Shown one piece after another: positions 18,419 to 25,035 of a stretch of 33,600 nucleotides of DNA. The notes under the pieces were generated by a model. That model was not told where the DNA came from. It saw only the letters and a program-made list of their open reading frames with translations, and made no database searches. Location: contig CAMSTM010000020.1 in NCBI GenBank assembly GCA_947063675.1, positions 1 through 33,600 of the forward strand, read 5' to 3'. This DNA comes from an uncultured Lachnospiraceae bacterium. Its GTDB lineage: Bacteria > Bacillota > Clostridia > Lachnospirales > Lachnospiraceae. The position numbers and the translations under genes were made by a program. Within the stretch, counting starts at the first letter, position 1. Every line of letters starts with the position of its first letter.

Positions 18419-19381
18419 TCAATTATCCGCTCTTTCTCTTAAAAACGCTTCATATTTCCTGAGGATATCCGCCGTTTCCAGATACAAATCATTGCCGGAA
18501 GCATTATCGGCACCCTTTTCCACCCGAAAATAAAAGTCAATCTCCGCTTTTACGGCCTCCGCCTTTTTCACTGTCATTTTAACCTGCGCCAGCCTTCTTT
18601 TCAACAAAGGGATAACGCAAAAATACAGTTCATCGTCCTCAAGGGATAAATACCCCAAAAGGGTCCTGTCCCCATCCATCACCCGGATTTTATTGCCCTC
18701 AAAGGACGCAGGATAAAGAACTTCTCCCGCTTTCAGTCTCTCAATTGCAGGAAATCGCCGCCTGCGCCCCTCCGCCCCGAGAAACGCCCGGAAGAGGTAA
18801 ATCTCCCGTCCCTGCCCGTCCCTCCTTAGCGGCTCCGCCATCTTTTTCAGTACCGCTGCCGGACGGATATACTGCATGGAAAGGCTCTGGAAAAGCCGCG
18901 CCTGAAACCGGAATCTCTCCGTTTCAAAAAGCGCGTCCTCCTCCCCCGGGCAGAAACAAAGTCTTCCCTCCGCCTGCTCCAAAAGCTCCCCGGTGGCATG
19001 CCGGATACTGACAAGGAACAGTTCAAATTCCTCTTCATCCGGGTTCCACAGATATTTCCCCCGCGCCTCCTGATAAAAGAGCTTTTCCTCTCCGGCATCT
19101 AAGCTGTAATAGCAATAAATGTTTCTGTCGCAAAAGGCTTTTTCGTTCACTTCCCCCTGCCATACCGGCTTTTCCTTTTTGGGGGCCGGCGTTTTTGCTT
19201 CTTTTTTCAGTACACTGTATGCGGCGTTAATCTCCTGCGCCCGTCTTATATACTCAGGTTTGTCCGCTCCCGCCGCATCGGGATGAAAAGCGCTCATCAG
19301 CCTGTGGTATTTTCTTCTGATAGCCGCTTTGTCATCCTCTCTGTCTATATTCAGGATTCTTTTTGCCTGCTCGGGGGTCAT
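18419..19381 (-). CDS. J-domain (DnaJ-like) protein
   Basis: A 320-residue protein with an N-terminal J domain (residues about 1-60: KRILNIDREDDKAAIRRKYH, HPD motif at 33-35, and AQEINAAYSVLKKE). This domain stimulates DnaK-type ATPases. There is no G/F region, zinc finger or canonical DnaJ C-terminal domain. The remaining ~240 residues show alternating beta-like and helical stretches that I do not recognise. It may therefore be a specialised co-chaperone. It is between DUF6179 and GH78 on the same strand, and coupled to GH78. The ribosome binding site before ATG 19381 is weak (AGAAAGAA). Confidence 0.8.
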   Translation of the reverse strand: MTPEQAKRILNIDREDDKAAIRRKYHRLMSAFHPDAAGADKPEYIRRAQEINAAYSVLKKEAKTPAPKKEKPVWQGEVNEKAFCDRNIYCYYSLDAGEEKLFYQEARGKYLWNPDEEEFELFLVSIRHATGELLEQAEGRLCFCPGEEDALFETERFRFQARLFQSLSMQYIRPAAVLKKMAEPLRRDGQGREIYLFRAFLGAEGRRRRFPAIERLKAGEVLYPASFEGNKIRVMDGDRTLLGYLSLEDDELYFCVIPLLKRRLAQVKMTVKKAEAVKAEIDFYFRVEKGADNASGNDLYLETADILRKYEAFLRERADN

Positions 19382-19452: not shown

Positions 19453-20094
19453 TTATTTTGCATTATTTGCCACAATTTCATAAATATTTTCTATCATTTC
19501 CTGATAACCGAAGCAATATTTCCGCAAAACGCCTCTCACATAGCTTTCCGGAAAAGAATGCAGAAAATCCTGCTCCTTTCGGATACACTTTAAGTATTCG
19601 TAAATTCTGTCTATTCCCGTGTACCCGGAAAGGTCCCTTGTCACCGGATAGTCCAGCGTCAGGATGGTGTCCTTTGGATTGAACCTGATATCGTACCATT
19701 TAAAAAACTCCGGCATCCCTTTGACCACAGTATCATACAGACATATATTACCATAATCAGAAAATTCCGGCATCATTTCATTGTACATTGCAAGGGTTTT
19801 CCTCACCTTTTTTTCCACAAGGGCCATACCCCCCTCGTACGCCTGCCGGGCCGTCATTCCTTTTTTCTGCACAAGGACGGTTCCGTTTGCGTTCTCGGAT
19901 TTATCCCGTGCCGTGCCAGTTACGGCATCGTCCCCGCCCTCCATATCGGATAGCTCCGTTTCATGGATGGCATACAAAACGGCGCCCATTAGCTGCTCCG
20001 CTTTCTCGTAAGTAATCGAAGTGCTTTCCTTTGCGGTATACTTCTCCGCCAGTTCTCCCACAATCGGTATCAGTTCTTCCATGGTATAGTCCAT
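19453..20094 (-). CDS. DUF6179-like protein
   Basis: A 213-residue soluble protein. The segment beginning ELIPIVGELAEKYTAKESTS and continuing through EQLMGAVLYAIHE resembles DUF6179 proteins, which in my recollection occur next to DUF6323 genes in Lachnospiraceae. A glycine/aspartate-rich insert (about residues 53-75) is followed by helical sequence (VEKKVRKTLAMYNEM) and a conserved-looking LDYPVTRDLSGYTGIDRIYEYL. The function is unknown. It starts 4 bp after the DUF6323 stop, so the two are certainly co-transcribed. The ribosome binding site is GGGGGTGAG. Confidence 0.65.
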   Translation of the reverse strand: MDYTMEELIPIVGELAEKYTAKESTSITYEKAEQLMGAVLYAIHETELSDMEGGDDAVTGTARDKSENANGTVLVQKKGMTARQAYEGGMALVEKKVRKTLAMYNEMMPEFSDYGNICLYDTVVKGMPEFFKWYDIRFNPKDTILTLDYPVTRDLSGYTGIDRIYEYLKCIRKEQDFLHSFPESYVRGVLRKYCFGYQEMIENIYEIVANNAK

Positions 20095-20098
20095 CGTC

Positions 20099-20632
20099 TC
20101 ACCCCCAGCAAAGTTCTTTTAAGGTTTCAAAATACAGTTCATAGTCCCATCTTTTCACCTCGTCAAACTGTTCATATTCGCCGTAGCCCTGAGAGCTTTC
20201 ATGCCCTCTGTAGCCCGCCCGGATTGCCTGTGAAAAGTTGTTTAAGCAGGTTCCCTCCAGATAATCCAAATCACCGAAGCATATCTCCTCAAACTGCTCT
20301 TTCATAAAATGCAGAAGCTCGTCGTCCGTGATTTCATCCAGCATTTCATTCTTGTACAGATAAAATATCTCCTGCAGGCGAATAATCGTTTCCACATAAT
20401 TATTCTGGTCAATAAATGCGGAATCGCAAAATTCATGGATAATCTTCGGCGCAATCCCCTCCCCGAACTCGATTCGCCTCTGCTCCTTGAGGGTATGGCG
20501 CTGCTCGCTTAAAATCAGCTTTGCCTCCTGCTCGCTCAGCGAAAGCCCGAATCTGGCGGTTTCATTATTTGCCGCAACAATCCCCCCTAATTGACGTTCC
20601 TGCTGTAATAATACCATCCAATCCTTATTCAA
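20099..20632 (-). CDS. DUF6323-like protein (TTG start)
   Basis: A 177-residue, mainly helical, acidic protein. Segments NNETARFGLSLSEQEAKLIL, IEFGEGIAPKIIHEFCDSAF and DEITDDELLHFMKE resemble DUF6323. The function is unknown. TTG 20632 is chosen because a perfect AAGGAGGG (20640-20647) lies 7 bases upstream. The longer frame to 20755 would include the promoter at 20685-20713 and its proposed first codons overlap a hairpin. It is the first gene of a cluster with DUF6179, and possibly with the J-domain and GH78 genes. Confidence 0.65.
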   Translation of the reverse strand: MNKDWMVLLQQERQLGGIVAANNETARFGLSLSEQEAKLILSEQRHTLKEQRRIEFGEGIAPKIIHEFCDSAFIDQNNYVETIIRLQEIFYLYKNEMLDEITDDELLHFMKEQFEEICFGDLDYLEGTCLNNFSQAIRAGYRGHESSQGYGEYEQFDEVKRWDYELYFETLKELCWG

Positions 20633-20684
20633 GAAATCGCCCTCCTTGCACATTTGTTTTCTGTATTCAGTTGTAGGAATACCG

Positions 20685-20713
20685 ATTATAGCATTGGCGG
20701 TATTTTGTTTCAA
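20685..20713 (-). promoter_or_regulatory. Promoter of the DUF6323-DUF6179 cluster
   Basis: Minus-strand -35 TTGAAA (20708-20713), 17-bp spacer, perfect -10 TATAAT (20685-20690). The predicted transcript starts near 20678, about 46 bases before TTG 20632. This excludes the upstream in-frame ATG. Confidence 0.8.
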
Positions 20714-20754
20714 GTCTTGACTTTTTAATGTTTCTGTGGTATGATTAAGCCACA

Positions 20755-20799
20755 ATCAGGAAAGGGATATGGTCGGACATGCCATATCCCTTTCCTGAT
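20755..20799. terminator. Perfect 18-bp hairpin after the toxin-antitoxin pair
   Basis: Arms 20755-20772 and 20782-20799 pair without mismatch around a 9-base loop. It lies 31 bp beyond the toxin stop, so it probably ends that transcript. A strong T-run is missing on both strands. Confidence 0.6.
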
Positions 20800-20829: not shown

Positions 20830-21162
20830 TCAGTCGATATTCATTTTGGACAGCATTCGAAGCTGGTCACGTTTACTGTAAATAATATTCAAAACATAAA
20901 CTCGCCTGGTTTCACTGTCTATCCTGTAGTATACATAGAAATTCCCTGTTATAATTCTGCGAATACCACGTGAACGCCATGGCTCATCCAAAACAGGGGC
21001 CACACTTGCAGCCATATATGCAAGCTTACTTATCTCTTTGCGGATGCTACGGATATACGTAAGCGCAGTTTCCGGCACAAGCAGGACATCGGCAATATAA
21101 TTTCGAAGCTCTGTCAGGTCTGTCTCAGCGTCCGGCGTTACAATAATTTCGTAATAATCCAT
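20830..21162 (-). CDS. RelE/ParE family toxin
   Basis: A 110-residue RelE/ParE-superfamily toxin. Recognisable parts are MDYYEIIVTPDAETDLTELR (first strand and helix), RIITGNFYVYYRID and VYVLNIIYSKRDQ (the core strands). Family members either cleave mRNA on the ribosome (RelE) or poison DNA gyrase (ParE); the sequence alone does not decide which. Its ATG overlaps the antitoxin stop by one base (TAATG), typical of coupled toxin-antitoxin pairs. Confidence 0.88.
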   Translation of the reverse strand: MDYYEIIVTPDAETDLTELRNYIADVLLVPETALTYIRSIRKEISKLAYMAASVAPVLDEPWRSRGIRRIITGNFYVYYRIDSETRRVYVLNIIYSKRDQLRMLSKMNID

Positions 21163-21458
21163 TATATGAGACCCCTTTCAAGCTCGTCAAACACCTCTGC
21201 GTATGGTCTGCCCTCACCCTTAAGAGACTGCTCATAGCTTTGCGCAAGCTTTGCCGTCAGTTCAGCGTCGGTCATCATATCATGGGTTTGTGGCTCATCC
21301 GGCAGAACAAGTGCAAATGGTACACCGTGTCTGTATATAATCTGGCGGTAAAGAGAATTAATAACGACAGAAACGGGAATCCCCAGCTTTTGAAGTATAT
21401 CTTCAGCTTCCGTTTTCACATCATATTCCACTCTTGCGCTGACAGTTGCATCTTTCAC
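21162..21458 (-). CDS. RelB/DinJ family antitoxin
   Basis: A 98-residue antitoxin. The N-terminal ribbon-helix-helix (ATVSARVEYDVKTEAEDILQ and LGIPVSVVINSLYRQII) binds DNA and the C-terminal tail should bind the toxin. GTG 21458 is chosen: AAGGAAGG lies 8 bases upstream, while the alternative GTG 21467 directly abuts it. The operator at 21478-21495 suggests the usual autoregulation. Confidence 0.85.
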   Translation of the reverse strand: MKDATVSARVEYDVKTEAEDILQKLGIPVSVVINSLYRQIIYRHGVPFALVLPDEPQTHDMMTDAELTAKLAQSYEQSLKGEGRPYAEVFDELERGLI

Positions 21459-21477
21459 ATCTAACACCTTCCTTTCA

Positions 21478-21545: not shown

Positions 21546-24500
21546 TTATCTAATCAGCATCCTGCATACCTCCTCCACTTCCCTCTTTCCCCTTCCGACT
21601 ACAAAATAAAAATCCATCTGCCCCTTATTTTCCATATAAAGATAAGAGCCATAGGCCGGAATGTCACAGCATATCGCGGTATCCGCCGCCAGGACCAGCC
21701 CGTATCCCCGCTCGGAAGCCACAACGGCGGGTTTTCCGTTCCCATGGGAAATGTATCTGGCACCGCCCCGCAGAGCAATACCGGCTTTTCCGGAAATCCC
21801 CGGCGCATAAAGATTTTCCGCTTTCTGCCAGTCCAGATACAGCCGGCTCTTTGCTTTTCCGCCCGGGCTGTCCTCAATCTGGCGGCATTCCTTCTCCCGC
21901 TCCGCAAGCAGAAGCTTTTTATCCCGCGTCATATAGTGAATGGCCCCGCTTCCTTTATTAACCCGCAGACAAATCTCGTCCGTCAGAAATTCCACCGTAT
22001 TGCCGGATTCCTTATACAGCCACGCGCTTTCTTTTTTGCAGCCGGCAATGCCCGGATGGACTCTGTCCGAAAGCGCCGCTCCCTTTGCAAAGGTTACCCG
22101 TACAATGCCGCCGGTAATCGCGCATAGCCGCAAAGTGCCGTACCGGCTCTGAAAATAAAGCCCGTCCGGCTGCCCCATAAACCATTTCACCGACAAGTCA
22201 ATTTTTCCGTGTCCCGCCGGGCGCAAAATTTCTGTGGGCGGCATGCCGCCAAATTCGCAGCCTGCTTTTGCTCCGTCTGCTTTTTCTTCCCTGACGGAAA
22301 CTCTTTCCGGGGAAGGTTTTACCTGTCTGCTTATAAAAGGCTTTTTATCCTCCGGCGTCACGGCTTTTTTCACAACGGCAACCGCCCGTTTTCTGGGCCG
22401 GATGGCCGCTCCGCTTCCTGCCGAATCTTTTTCTTTTCCGCCCTCCGTCTCATAAGATACGGATTTTTTCTCATTTTCCTTATCTTCTGCGAAAACCGCA
22501 AAGGTTCTTCCTTTTCCTGCCGGCGCCGGGTCGGCTATCAGCCCTGTCAGAGTATCGCAGCAGAGCACGCACAGCTCATGCAGCGCGCGGGTCGCCGCCA
22601 CATAGAGAAGCTTCGCGTGACCGTCGTCTGACGGATAGTCTTCCCTTGTGGGATTTAAAATCAGTACGGCGTCAAATTCCAGTCCCTTTGTGTATTCCAC
22701 GGGAAGCACCATGATTCCGTTTCCAAACTCCGCTTTTTCAAGATTGCTTTCCATCACCTCCACATATTCCGACAGCAAAAGAGCCATCCTGGCCGCCTCC
22801 TTTTTGCTGCGGCAGATAACCGCAATGGTATCAAGCCCCTTCTTCTGCCAGTCCCTGCAAAGATGCGCCGCTTCTTTTATCAGCGCATTTCGCTCCGGCG
22901 TCCTTTTCACCAGAACCGGATTTCCGTGCCTGATTATAGGCTCTACGGGATAAACCGAAAATTTCCCGTGGCGCAGAATATCCGTGGCAAAGTCCGAAAT
23001 TTCCACCGTGTTCCGGTAGCTTTTCTTTAAAACCCCAAAGCTGTCCATAGCGTCCGGCAAAAGCAGCGCTTTCAGCTCCTCCCAGTCGTTTAGACCGAAG
23101 CCAAAATGAATATTCTGGGAAACGTCCCCCATAACGGTGTAGGTACATCTGTTGATGCAGAATTTCAGCGCGTGATACGCCATCATTCCGAAATCCTGGG
23201 CCTCGTCAATTACCACATGGCTTGCCTCGCTTATGACCTCCTCCTCTTTTACCCTCTTATAAAGGTAAGCTAACGCCGCCAAATCGTACACGTCAAATTC
23301 ATTCTCCGGCGCTTCAACCCGTATTCCTTTTTCTTGCTGCTTCCTTAAGAAATCCCGGTACATTTCAAAAACAGATATCTTCCAGTGTCTTCCCCCGTAC
23401 CAGCCCCGGTAAGCCTTTAAAATTGCTTTTCTCTCCGCCTCCGAATAGCTGATTCCTTTTCCGAGAAATTCCTCCTTTACCTTTCCGAGCAGCCGCCCGT
23501 TCAGCATATTAATTTTGTTCTGAATAGAAACGGAGGGATTTTCCTCAATATAAGCCTCCACGGCTTCCCCCGTTAAAAGGCTGACCAAATCCTTCTTACT
23601 GACTTCTCTGTCGTCTGTTTCGTCATATACGCCGGTTTTTCCGTTCCGGAAGCCTTCCACAAACGCTTTTGGATTTAAGTATACGGTATCGGCGGAAATT
23701 GCCTTCCGTTCCAGTTCCCGGCAGTACCCGGCCAAGTCCCGAAACCACCGGGAGCTGCCCTTTACGGCGTCTTTCCCCGTTCCCTTAATCCTGTATTTCT
23801 TTTCGTCCCAGTCCTCGTACAAAAGCCGGACAAAAAGCTGTTCCATGGTCATCTGCCGCACGCCGTACACATCCAGGTCCGGCAGAACGCCCGTGATATA
23901 ATTCAGCAGAATCCGGTTGCTCCCCACAATGTAAAAATCCTCCGGCCTGAAACGCTCCGCATAGTTATACAGGATATAAGATATCCGGTGCATGGCCACC
24001 GTGGTTTTTCCCGAGCCCGCCATCCCCTGCACAATCACATTGTGATAGGGGGATTTTCTGATAATCTCATTCTGCTCCTTTTGAATGGTGGCAACAATTT
24101 CTCCCAGAACCGCCTGCTTGTTTTTGGCCAGATACTTTGTAAGAAGCTCGTCGTTGGCAATCACCTCGCTGTCAAAAAAATCCAGCAGCTTTCCGCCTTC
24201 AATTTCATAAGTACGCTTGCGCGTCAAATCAATCGGAATATCCACATCCCCCGGCGCCCTGTAGCTGCATTTTCCCAGATTGTTTTCGTAATATGCGTTT
24301 GCCACCGGCGCGCGCCAGTCCACCACCGCCTGATGGGTGGCGTCCCTTGCTATGCCGCCCCTGCCGATATAAAGAGACTCCTCCTTACCGGTTTTTTCAT
24401 CGCGGAAAACAATTCGGCCAAAATAGGGCTTGTTTTTTGCCTTTTCATTGCGCATAAGCGCCCGCTTCATGTGCTCGTGCATCGTGACCGTGTTGTTTAA

Positions 24501-24689
24501 AATGGTCAGCACCTCCACGTCGTTGTCATGGTAACGGGCCAGCATTTCGTCGATATTTTCCTGCATCCGGGCGACTTCCCCGCTGTAATTTTTCAGATTG
24601 CGGCTTACTACCTCCAACGTCTCCCGAAGATAATCCTCCTCCGCCTTCCGCGACACTCCAAAATTTTTCCTTTTATCTCCTGCTCCCAT
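21546..24689 (-). CDS. helD: HelD-type helicase fused to a GH31 N-terminal-like domain
   Basis: A 1047-residue protein. Residues 1 to ~730 are a HelD-class UvrD-like ATPase, which in Bacillus frees stalled RNA polymerase from DNA. They show an N-terminal coiled-coil (about 15-85), the HelD stretch YIGRGGIARDATHQAVVDWR, Walker A GMAGSGKT (222-229), Walker B VVIDEAQD (D495), GDVSQNI, and motif VI VAATRALHEL (about 696-705). A charged low-complexity linker follows (about 730-818). The last ~225 residues resemble the N-terminal galactose-mutarotase-like beta-sandwich of GH31 glycosidases (VEFLTDEICLRVNKGSGAIH, ASERGYGLVL, DFYFVVG). They end exactly where the GH31 catalytic barrel would begin. Usual HelD is about 700-780 residues, so this tail is extra. 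The ATG has AGGAGGG 8 bases upstream. Confidence 0.85.
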   Translation of the reverse strand: MGAGDKRKNFGVSRKAEEDYLRETLEVVSRNLKNYSGEVARMQENIDEMLARYHDNDVEVLTILNNTVTMHEHMKRALMRNEKAKNKPYFGRIVFRDEKTGKEESLYIGRGGIARDATHQAVVDWRAPVANAYYENNLGKCSYRAPGDVDIPIDLTRKRTYEIEGGKLLDFFDSEVIANDELLTKYLAKNKQAVLGEIVATIQKEQNEIIRKSPYHNVIVQGMAGSGKTTVAMHRISYILYNYAERFRPEDFYIVGSNRILLNYITGVLPDLDVYGVRQMTMEQLFVRLLYEDWDEKKYRIKGTGKDAVKGSSRWFRDLAGYCRELERKAISADTVYLNPKAFVEGFRNGKTGVYDETDDREVSKKDLVSLLTGEAVEAYIEENPSVSIQNKINMLNGRLLGKVKEEFLGKGISYSEAERKAILKAYRGWYGGRHWKISVFEMYRDFLRKQQEKGIRVEAPENEFDVYDLAALAYLYKRVKEEEVISEASHVVIDEAQDFGMMAYHALKFCINRCTYTVMGDVSQNIHFGFGLNDWEELKALLLPDAMDSFGVLKKSYRNTVEISDFATDILRHGKFSVYPVEPIIRHGNPVLVKRTPERNALIKEAAHLCRDWQKKGLDTIAVICRSKKEAARMALLLSEYVEVMESNLEKAEFGNGIMVLPVEYTKGLEFDAVLILNPTREDYPSDDGHAKLLYVAATRALHELCVLCCDTLTGLIADPAPAGKGRTFAVFAEDKENEKKSVSYETEGGKEKDSAGSGAAIRPRKRAVAVVKKAVTPEDKKPFISRQVKPSPERVSVREEKADGAKAGCEFGGMPPTEILRPAGHGKIDLSVKWFMGQPDGLYFQSRYGTLRLCAITGGIVRVTFAKGAALSDRVHPGIAGCKKESAWLYKESGNTVEFLTDEICLRVNKGSGAIHYMTRDKKLLLAEREKECRQIEDSPGGKAKSRLYLDWQKAENLYAPGISGKAGIALRGGARYISHGNGKPAVVASERGYGLVLAADTAICCDIPAYGSYLYMENKGQMDFYFVVGRGKREVEEVCRMLIR

Positions 24690-25035
24690 CCGCTATGCCC
24701 TCCTGCCATCTTCGTAACCGCCTGATACAGACGGACGCCTTTTTGTTTTCTCTGTTGCCGGTATCTTCCATTGTAAGGGAAAAAGAAAAAATTACTAGAC
24801 TTTAATTTCAAAATGTGGTAGACTATATACTGTTCCAATGATTAAAATTTTTATTCTTATATCGTTCTTTTATATATGTTTTTTAATTATATTTTTATAA
24901 TCAAGCAGGGAAGAGGAATCTTCCCTGCTCGTGCGCTAAGGCAGGCTGCGAAAGCAGCATATACCTTTCTGCCCCATGTGCATAAAAATACCCCGAATGC
25001 CTGTTACAGCACCCGGGGGTTTTCTTTTTTACATA
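24690..25035. other. Intergenic region with several hairpins
   Basis: This is 346 bp without a convincing gene. From 24690 to 24900 it is AT-rich leader of the HelD gene; I saw no clear promoter hexamers. At 24904-24929 there is a perfect 10-bp hairpin (AGCAGGGAAG/CTTCCCTGCT, 6-base loop). At 24940-24973 there is a stem GGCAG/CTGCC enclosing GCTGC-GAAA-GCAGC (24945-24958), a GNRA-capped hairpin. At 24990-25030 there is a terminator. A small open frame at 24876-25061 looks like chance. Confidence 0.55.
24981..25030. terminator. Bidirectional terminator downstream of the ABC operon
   Basis: Outer arms ACCCCG (24990-24995) and CGGGG(G)T (25014-25020) with an inner CTG-TTA-CAG. On the minus strand it is followed by ATTTTTAT and ends the GntR-ABC operon. 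On the plus strand it is followed by TTTTCTTTTTT, a strong T-run, although no plus-strand gene precedes it. Confidence 0.7.

Follow-up and report, generated by a model that had tools for sequence, protein, structure and literature searches.

HelD is described as freeing RNA polymerase (RNAP) from stalled complexes and, in some bacteria, also from rifampicin. The Class I protein of Bacillus subtilis (structures 6WVK and 6ZCA) has 774 residues and, as described in PMC7749165, ends after its D2 domain, with neither a tether nor a sandwich. Large HelD variants are given as about 740–850 residues, with one listed at 872, and length differences among HelD proteins are ascribed to the two arms (PMC8655204); the main text of that paper has no words beginning with C-terminal, extension, fusion or glycos. 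HelD is described as working with the RNAP delta subunit (RpoE), a separate protein that combines a folded domain with a long charged disordered segment, its tail being acidic (PMC7749165). RNAP-interaction domains are also found in PcrA/UvrD, where a Tudor-like C-terminal beta domain accompanies an SF1 motor, and in Mfd (the RID); the C-terminal domain of PcrA is reported to be necessary and sufficient for RNAP binding (PMC5397179).

Here, we analysed a stretch of 33,600 nucleotides from an uncultured Lachnospiraceae bacterium (contig CAMSTM010000020.1, hereafter the window). It encodes a Class I-like protein of the HelD family whose motor (residues 1–720, with coiled-coil arm, DWRAP motif and ATPase core) is like that of B. 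subtilis HelD and which continues into a tether and a C-terminal sandwich. The whole fold of this sandwich, including the last strand and the helix before the barrel, is like the N-domain (PF13802 type) of GH31 enzymes such as MeXyl31 (5ZN6), BoGH31A (5JOU) and FjDex31A (6JR6), which comprise alpha-xylosidases and dextranases; it differs from these enzymes in lacking a catalytic barrel and in having a conserved lead segment (residues 813–836) and residues of its own, such as C1008. While the HelD motor and the GH31 N-domain fold are both known, HelD with a captured GH31 N-domain appears to be new. A new domain combination had been proposed in an initial annotation of the DNA, in keeping with the open-access literature, where a search that is noisy ('HelD' also matches 'held') gave no report of an additional domain on HelD, whether of GH31, galactose-mutarotase-like or any other type. 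The best explanation overall, with a probability of roughly 0.48, is that a GH31 N-domain was captured and re-used as a docking module on HelD.

Domain organization

The gene is a single open frame of 1047 residues with no internal stops, and its features are as follows.

21546..24689, minus strand: whole gene, with HelD-type motor, disordered tether and GH31 N-domain-like tail, 1047 amino acids
22530..24689, minus strand: HelD motor, residues 1–720 (NCBIfam NF041464, phmmer and Foldseek)
24438..24650, minus strand: predicted N-terminal coiled-coil arm, residues 14–84 (model helices 14–52 and 58–84)
24306..24320, minus strand: DWRAP motif, residues 124–128 (invariant in 72 full-length aligned rows)
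24000..24026, minus strand: Walker A GMAGSGKTT, residues 222–230 (G222 and A224–T230 invariant in the 72 rows)
23193..23207, minus strand: DEAQD (Walker B/motif II), residues 495–499 (D495, E496, Q498 and D499 invariant in the 72 rows)
22254..22529, minus strand: disordered basic tether, residues 721–812 (pLDDT below 50 for 725–809)
21549..22253, minus strand: GH31 N-terminal (galactose-mutarotase-like) beta-sandwich, residues 813–1047 (profile and model)
22182..22253, minus strand: conserved lead segment of the tail, residues 813–836 (poorly matched in GH31 N-domains)

The motor matches the HelD_BACSU profile NF041464 (E 1.7e-99) with 333.8 bits, below the equivalog cut-off of 419 bits, and is thus a HelD-family protein rather than one filed as a HelD_BACSU equivalog. 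The B. subtilis HelD structure 6wvk_H was matched by both phmmer (E 5.7e-70) and Foldseek (E 3.6e-36). The UvrD-like core contains the SF1 ATPase motifs, Walker A and DEAQD, and the N-terminal region contains DWRAP; in HelD, DWR is described as absolutely conserved, usually as DWR[A/S]P (PMC8655204). Helices 14–52 and 58–84 of the model form an N-terminal coiled coil, and by homology to B. subtilis HelD, residues 14–84 are the predicted secondary-channel arm (PMC7749165). The alignment of 72 full-length rows leaves out nine of the 80 loci L061–L140, which are cut, frame-split, near-identical or contain undetermined residues; a second alignment leaves out L104. The HelD-type motor with an apparently intact ATPase proposed in the initial annotation is thus borne out by the HelD_BACSU and 6wvk matches and by the presence of both ATPase motifs.

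In the full-length model, pLDDT falls below 50 not only in the tether (725–809) but also at motor residues 1–11 and 175–202, and the ten-residue blocks from residue 811 on reach 80–97, except for 821–830, with 71. The protein is modular, consisting of a motor, a flexible basic tether and a folded sandwich without a barrel. Since the pTM of the whole protein is 0.51, the arrangement of motor and tail cannot be read from this model.

Across 99 homologues, the tether has 68–256 residues (median 115) and a net charge that is positive in 94 and negative in five, in agreement with the charged linker noted earlier between motor and tail. The linkers of L022 and L025 contain tandem peptide repeats, with units like QPSQKKAVAE and AADESLAENTT, and such repeats are a likely source of the length variation. 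Short motifs in common, such as GPKRIVVQ and LLTG, are found in the linkers of L041, L048 and L056 and in those of L015 and L020. LLSG/LLTG occurs in 7 of 99 tethers (shuffled mean 0.14) and K[KRQ]P[FYV][IL] in 17 of 99 (shuffled mean 0.175), counts that are inflated by kinship among the sequences and refer to motifs picked after looking. These could possibly be short binding motifs.

Identity of the tail

The tail is almost certainly a complete GH31 N-terminal beta-sandwich, being a galactose-mutarotase-like sandwich that ends in the pre-barrel helix, as in PF13802. Its membership of this fold is based on profile and model rather than on the Pfam score, as the window tail reaches 18.7 of the 27 bits required for gathering. 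When the tail family profile was compared with solved structures, the best sequence matches were alpha-xylosidases. As a single sequence, the tail gave no match among PDB sequences at E ≤ 10, the family profile alone being effective, and an NCBIfam scan of the tail alone returned no family. Among the structural matches listed, those of the tail are GH31, and missing Tudor rows there exclude nothing. Profile, model and structural matches therefore agree with the initial reading of the tail as a GH31 N-domain that stops just before the barrel, a reading under which structural matches to GH31 were expected for this region and were found.

The frame ends before the catalytic barrel, which would carry the Asp nucleophile of a GH31 enzyme, and eight GH31 barrel queries detected no barrel remnant at E 1e-3 in 144 loci and the window. 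By its sequence, the tailed protein is not a GH31 enzyme. The GH31 catalytic pocket lies mainly in the barrel, and because the barrel is absent, sugar binding is not inherited by default. The earlier description of the tail as carbohydrate-binding-like thus holds for its galactose-mutarotase-like fold and not for an assumed ability to bind sugar. The sandwich might nevertheless act as a ligand sensor, binding a sugar or other small molecule and coupling RNAP rescue to nutrition, which would suit the fold, the alpha-xylosidases among its best solved matches, the gut habitat of the bacteria and an alpha-L-rhamnosidase gene three kilobases downstream of the HelD gene in the window. However, given the absence of the barrel and the lack of any sugar gene widely conserved as a neighbour, we consider such a role quite unlikely.

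Residues R864, E930, E958, S992, Y996 and D1026 are common to the tail and GH31. By contrast, near-invariance that is seen in tails but not in GH31 occurs chiefly in the lead segment and at A977 and C1008. Within the lead segment, F813, P817, L822 and H827 are conserved in 96, 97, 99 and 96% of 68 HelD tails, and the GH31 rows have gaps in 38–73% at these columns. W890, Y979, Y1013 and G1014, also near-invariant in tails, are present in at least one of the three nearest GH31 sequences and hence point to descent and stability rather than to a new surface.

Distribution of the tailed HelD

Matches at E ≤ 0.001 were found in 30 of the 37 genomes of this genus, and in 29 of them a single open frame encodes both motor and tail. 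The HelD of G017 is solely of the tail-less form, and G008 has both forms. The other seven genomes, two of them more than 94% complete, have no HelD-like match at this threshold. When a collection of genomes from 84,980 species was scanned with two peptide patterns derived from the tail profile, 89 places encoding a relative were detected and 80 were kept. The motor is in the same frame as the tail in 78 of these 80 loci, the exceptions being L113, where the tail lies in another frame beside HelD, and L127, which is cut by a contig end before the motor. In L055 and L113, motor and tail are in overlapping different frames with the break within the tether, which may be a sequencing error, a real fission or a programmed shift. 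Carriers include Eisenbergiella tayi DSM 26961, E. porci, Acetatifactor muris DSM 23669, Parablautia intestinalis and P. muri, as well as CE91-St56, a record titled complete genome.

In a family-wide sample of 299 genomes (298 genera in the tally), 98 give a match to the fusion profile at E ≤ 1e-20. The tail itself is present in no fewer than 24, lying in an overlapping frame in G185 and at a contig start, with no motor seen, in G042. In the phylum sample, the tail profile is matched in 29 of 398 genomes; in 28 of these, all but the window's own, the best-matching frame has no HelD motor and either resembles GH31 in type or size or is truncated at the end of a contig or locus. Many mammalian-gut members of the Lachnospiraceae carry the tailed HelD. 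An assembly error, or two genes fused by a frameshift or deletion in this genome alone, has a negligible probability given that 29 of the 37 genomes of the genus share the architecture and that one frame is seen in 78 of 80 loci, including named strains and L099, whose record is titled complete genome. The view in the initial annotation that the fusion was not random was thus supported, and the other tailed HelD proteins for which it proposed a search in Lachnospiraceae were found beyond one assembly.

A different arrangement was observed in one genome, in which L209 (G068:C53:4500-9500, minus strand) is a 1032-residue frame with an extra enzyme at the HelD N-terminus and no GH31 tail. From its sequence, the N-terminal partner reads like a ketopantoate-reductase-type NAD-binding enzyme, and the joint frame may be a fusion or a lost stop.

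Origin and selection

In a motor tree of 96 rows (62 tailed and 34 not) from which the tail columns were excluded, the tail label requires one change (SH-aLRT 99), and none of 500 shuffles did as well. This tree leaves out 68 of the 80 loci L061–L140 as surplus and L031, L032, L141, L201 and L202 as duplicates; rows with fewer than 500 motor residues were dropped, and L055, whose tail is in an overlapping frame, was labelled tailed by hand. The result was the same, with support of 98, in an 81-row tree without 13 long branches or outgroups (L030, L037, L038, L047, L049, L191, L192 and L195–L200) and without the surplus loci L075 and L099. No tail loss was found among the 62 tailed rows. In this sample, the tail needs a single gain within one family, Lachnospiraceae, and no loss. 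The nearest tail-less relatives are L050, L052, L053 and L054, followed by L058, and they end at most three residues from the end of the motor; no tail remnant was found in the flanks fetched for these relatives (best E 0.14; 1.4 kb downstream covered for G151).

The 68 tails form one clade with respect to 27 GH31 N-domains (support 96). The GH31 sequences nearest to the tails are L144, L145 and L155, whose join with them is without support, and the best solved match of L155 is an alpha-xylosidase.

In eight pairs chosen by hand among close relatives, with small dS in some, dN/dS was 0.045–0.145 for the motor, 0.073–0.296 for the tail and 0.18–0.78 for the tether. The tail value was below that of the tether in all eight pairs, only slightly so in two (0.174 versus 0.182 and 0.178 versus 0.216), and above that of the motor in seven. 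Selection keeps the tail, and so the tail probably does something useful on HelD. The tail could instead be a passenger without function, a neutral addition that its tethered, C-terminal position makes tolerable, as its looser constraint relative to the motor and the separate frames of L055 and L113 would allow; we regard this as very unlikely, given the low tail dN/dS in every pair, the lack of losses and the near-invariant residues across the group. The extra domain is fixed, clear in origin and present in many gut Lachnospiraceae, and it offers a clean single event, with one gain, identified tail-less sisters and cultured carriers, in which to study how an enzyme domain becomes an adaptor of the transcription machinery and how HelD is recruited or gated in bacteria without the delta subunit.

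Putative role of the tail

We propose that a GH31 N-domain, by profile most like those of alpha-xylosidases, was joined to the HelD motor via the long, mostly basic tether and re-used, as a non-enzyme, as a tethered docking module. The motor would act as HelD does, invading RNAP, opening it and stripping off nucleic acid, while the tail would swing free on its tether and bind a partner, most likely RNAP itself or a factor on it, so that the motor would be held near its target. The lead segment (813–836) and tail-specific residues such as Cys1008 would be the likeliest parts of a new surface. The related motor PcrA/UvrD is held near its target in this way by its C-terminal Tudor-like domain. 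We give a docking role of the tail about an even chance. The likeness to that domain and to the Mfd RID is one of working only (PMC5397179); the former is a Tudor-like fold of about 50 residues with shown RNAP binding, and the HelD tail is a 235-residue sandwich with putative RNAP binding.

This role is favoured because of the identity of the domain, the disordered-tether layout, the single gain without loss and a tail dN/dS below that of the tether; because the lead segment and C1008 hardly vary among tails, unlike in GH31; because no HelD other than the fusion was found in the window's genome and the tether is mostly net positive; and because the C-terminal domain of PcrA provides a precedent. 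Against it, the gene neighbourhood suggests no partner, and the GH31 N-domain is unrelated to Tudor domains. To our knowledge, no GH31 N-domain has previously been described as binding RNAP.

The window's genome, which is 95% complete, contains no match to the full protein apart from the protein itself, and the HelD model finds this gene alone at HelD level and two weaker matches in frames of 765 and 1125 residues, which by length alone resemble UvrD- or RecB-type helicases other than HelD. A second HelD was seen in just one of the 29 fusion-bearing genomes of the genus, G008. Some other members of the family have a second match in a frame of 696–713 residues (e.g. G078, G126 and G138), which in G078 was checked and has no tail. 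The delta subunit family TIGR04567 was detected in none of the 37 genus genomes, with positive B. subtilis and Lactococcus lactis controls.

An intramolecular regulator, in which the tail would bend back onto the motor or onto the arms of the motor, or partly replace delta, and set ATPase activity or release, would fit the absence of delta and the cis placement of motor and tail seen in 78 of 80 loci. It is nonetheless an unlikely explanation, as tether length varies more than would suit a fixed intramolecular dock, the mostly basic tether is the opposite of the acidic tail of delta (PMC7749165), and HelD without delta is also the rule in the Clostridia covered by PMC8655204, apart from two species. 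The last two points also led us to abandon the idea of a delta mimic, which was kept only as part of this alternative.

With respect to the docking module, we tentatively suggest, somewhat short of even odds, that the tail would represent a new class of RNAP-associated adaptor fold, unlike the Tudor type, in which a non-catalytic glycosidase domain would have become a permanent part of a transcription-recycling machine. It would mark a Lachnospiraceae HelD subfamily, with no further HelD detected in 28 of the 29 genus genomes that bear the fusion, and the motor would be recruited or gated by a partner not used in other bacteria.

Gene neighbourhood

No widely conserved neighbour, sugar genes included, was found, and every neighbour family is confined to 17 or fewer of the 80 loci. 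The commonest family, present in 17 loci at differing positions, reads like an ABC transporter protein from the sequence of its longest example. The neighbourhood was consequently set aside as a clue to function. A promoter scan 5' of the HelD gene gave one promoter-like site (1.3 expected), on the strand opposite to the gene. A terminator-like hairpin at 24991–25018 on the strand of the HelD gene (minus; one found, 0.4 expected) follows the transporter gene located upstream. Immediately 3' of the HelD gene, the window contains a RelB-type antitoxin and ParE-type toxin pair (20830–21467, minus strand), and further genes on the same strand include two adjacent ones of the uncharacterised families DUF6179 and DUF6323 (19453–20755) and, adjoining the alpha-L-rhamnosidase gene, one for a 320-residue protein (18419–19381) with an N-terminal J-domain as its sole Pfam match.
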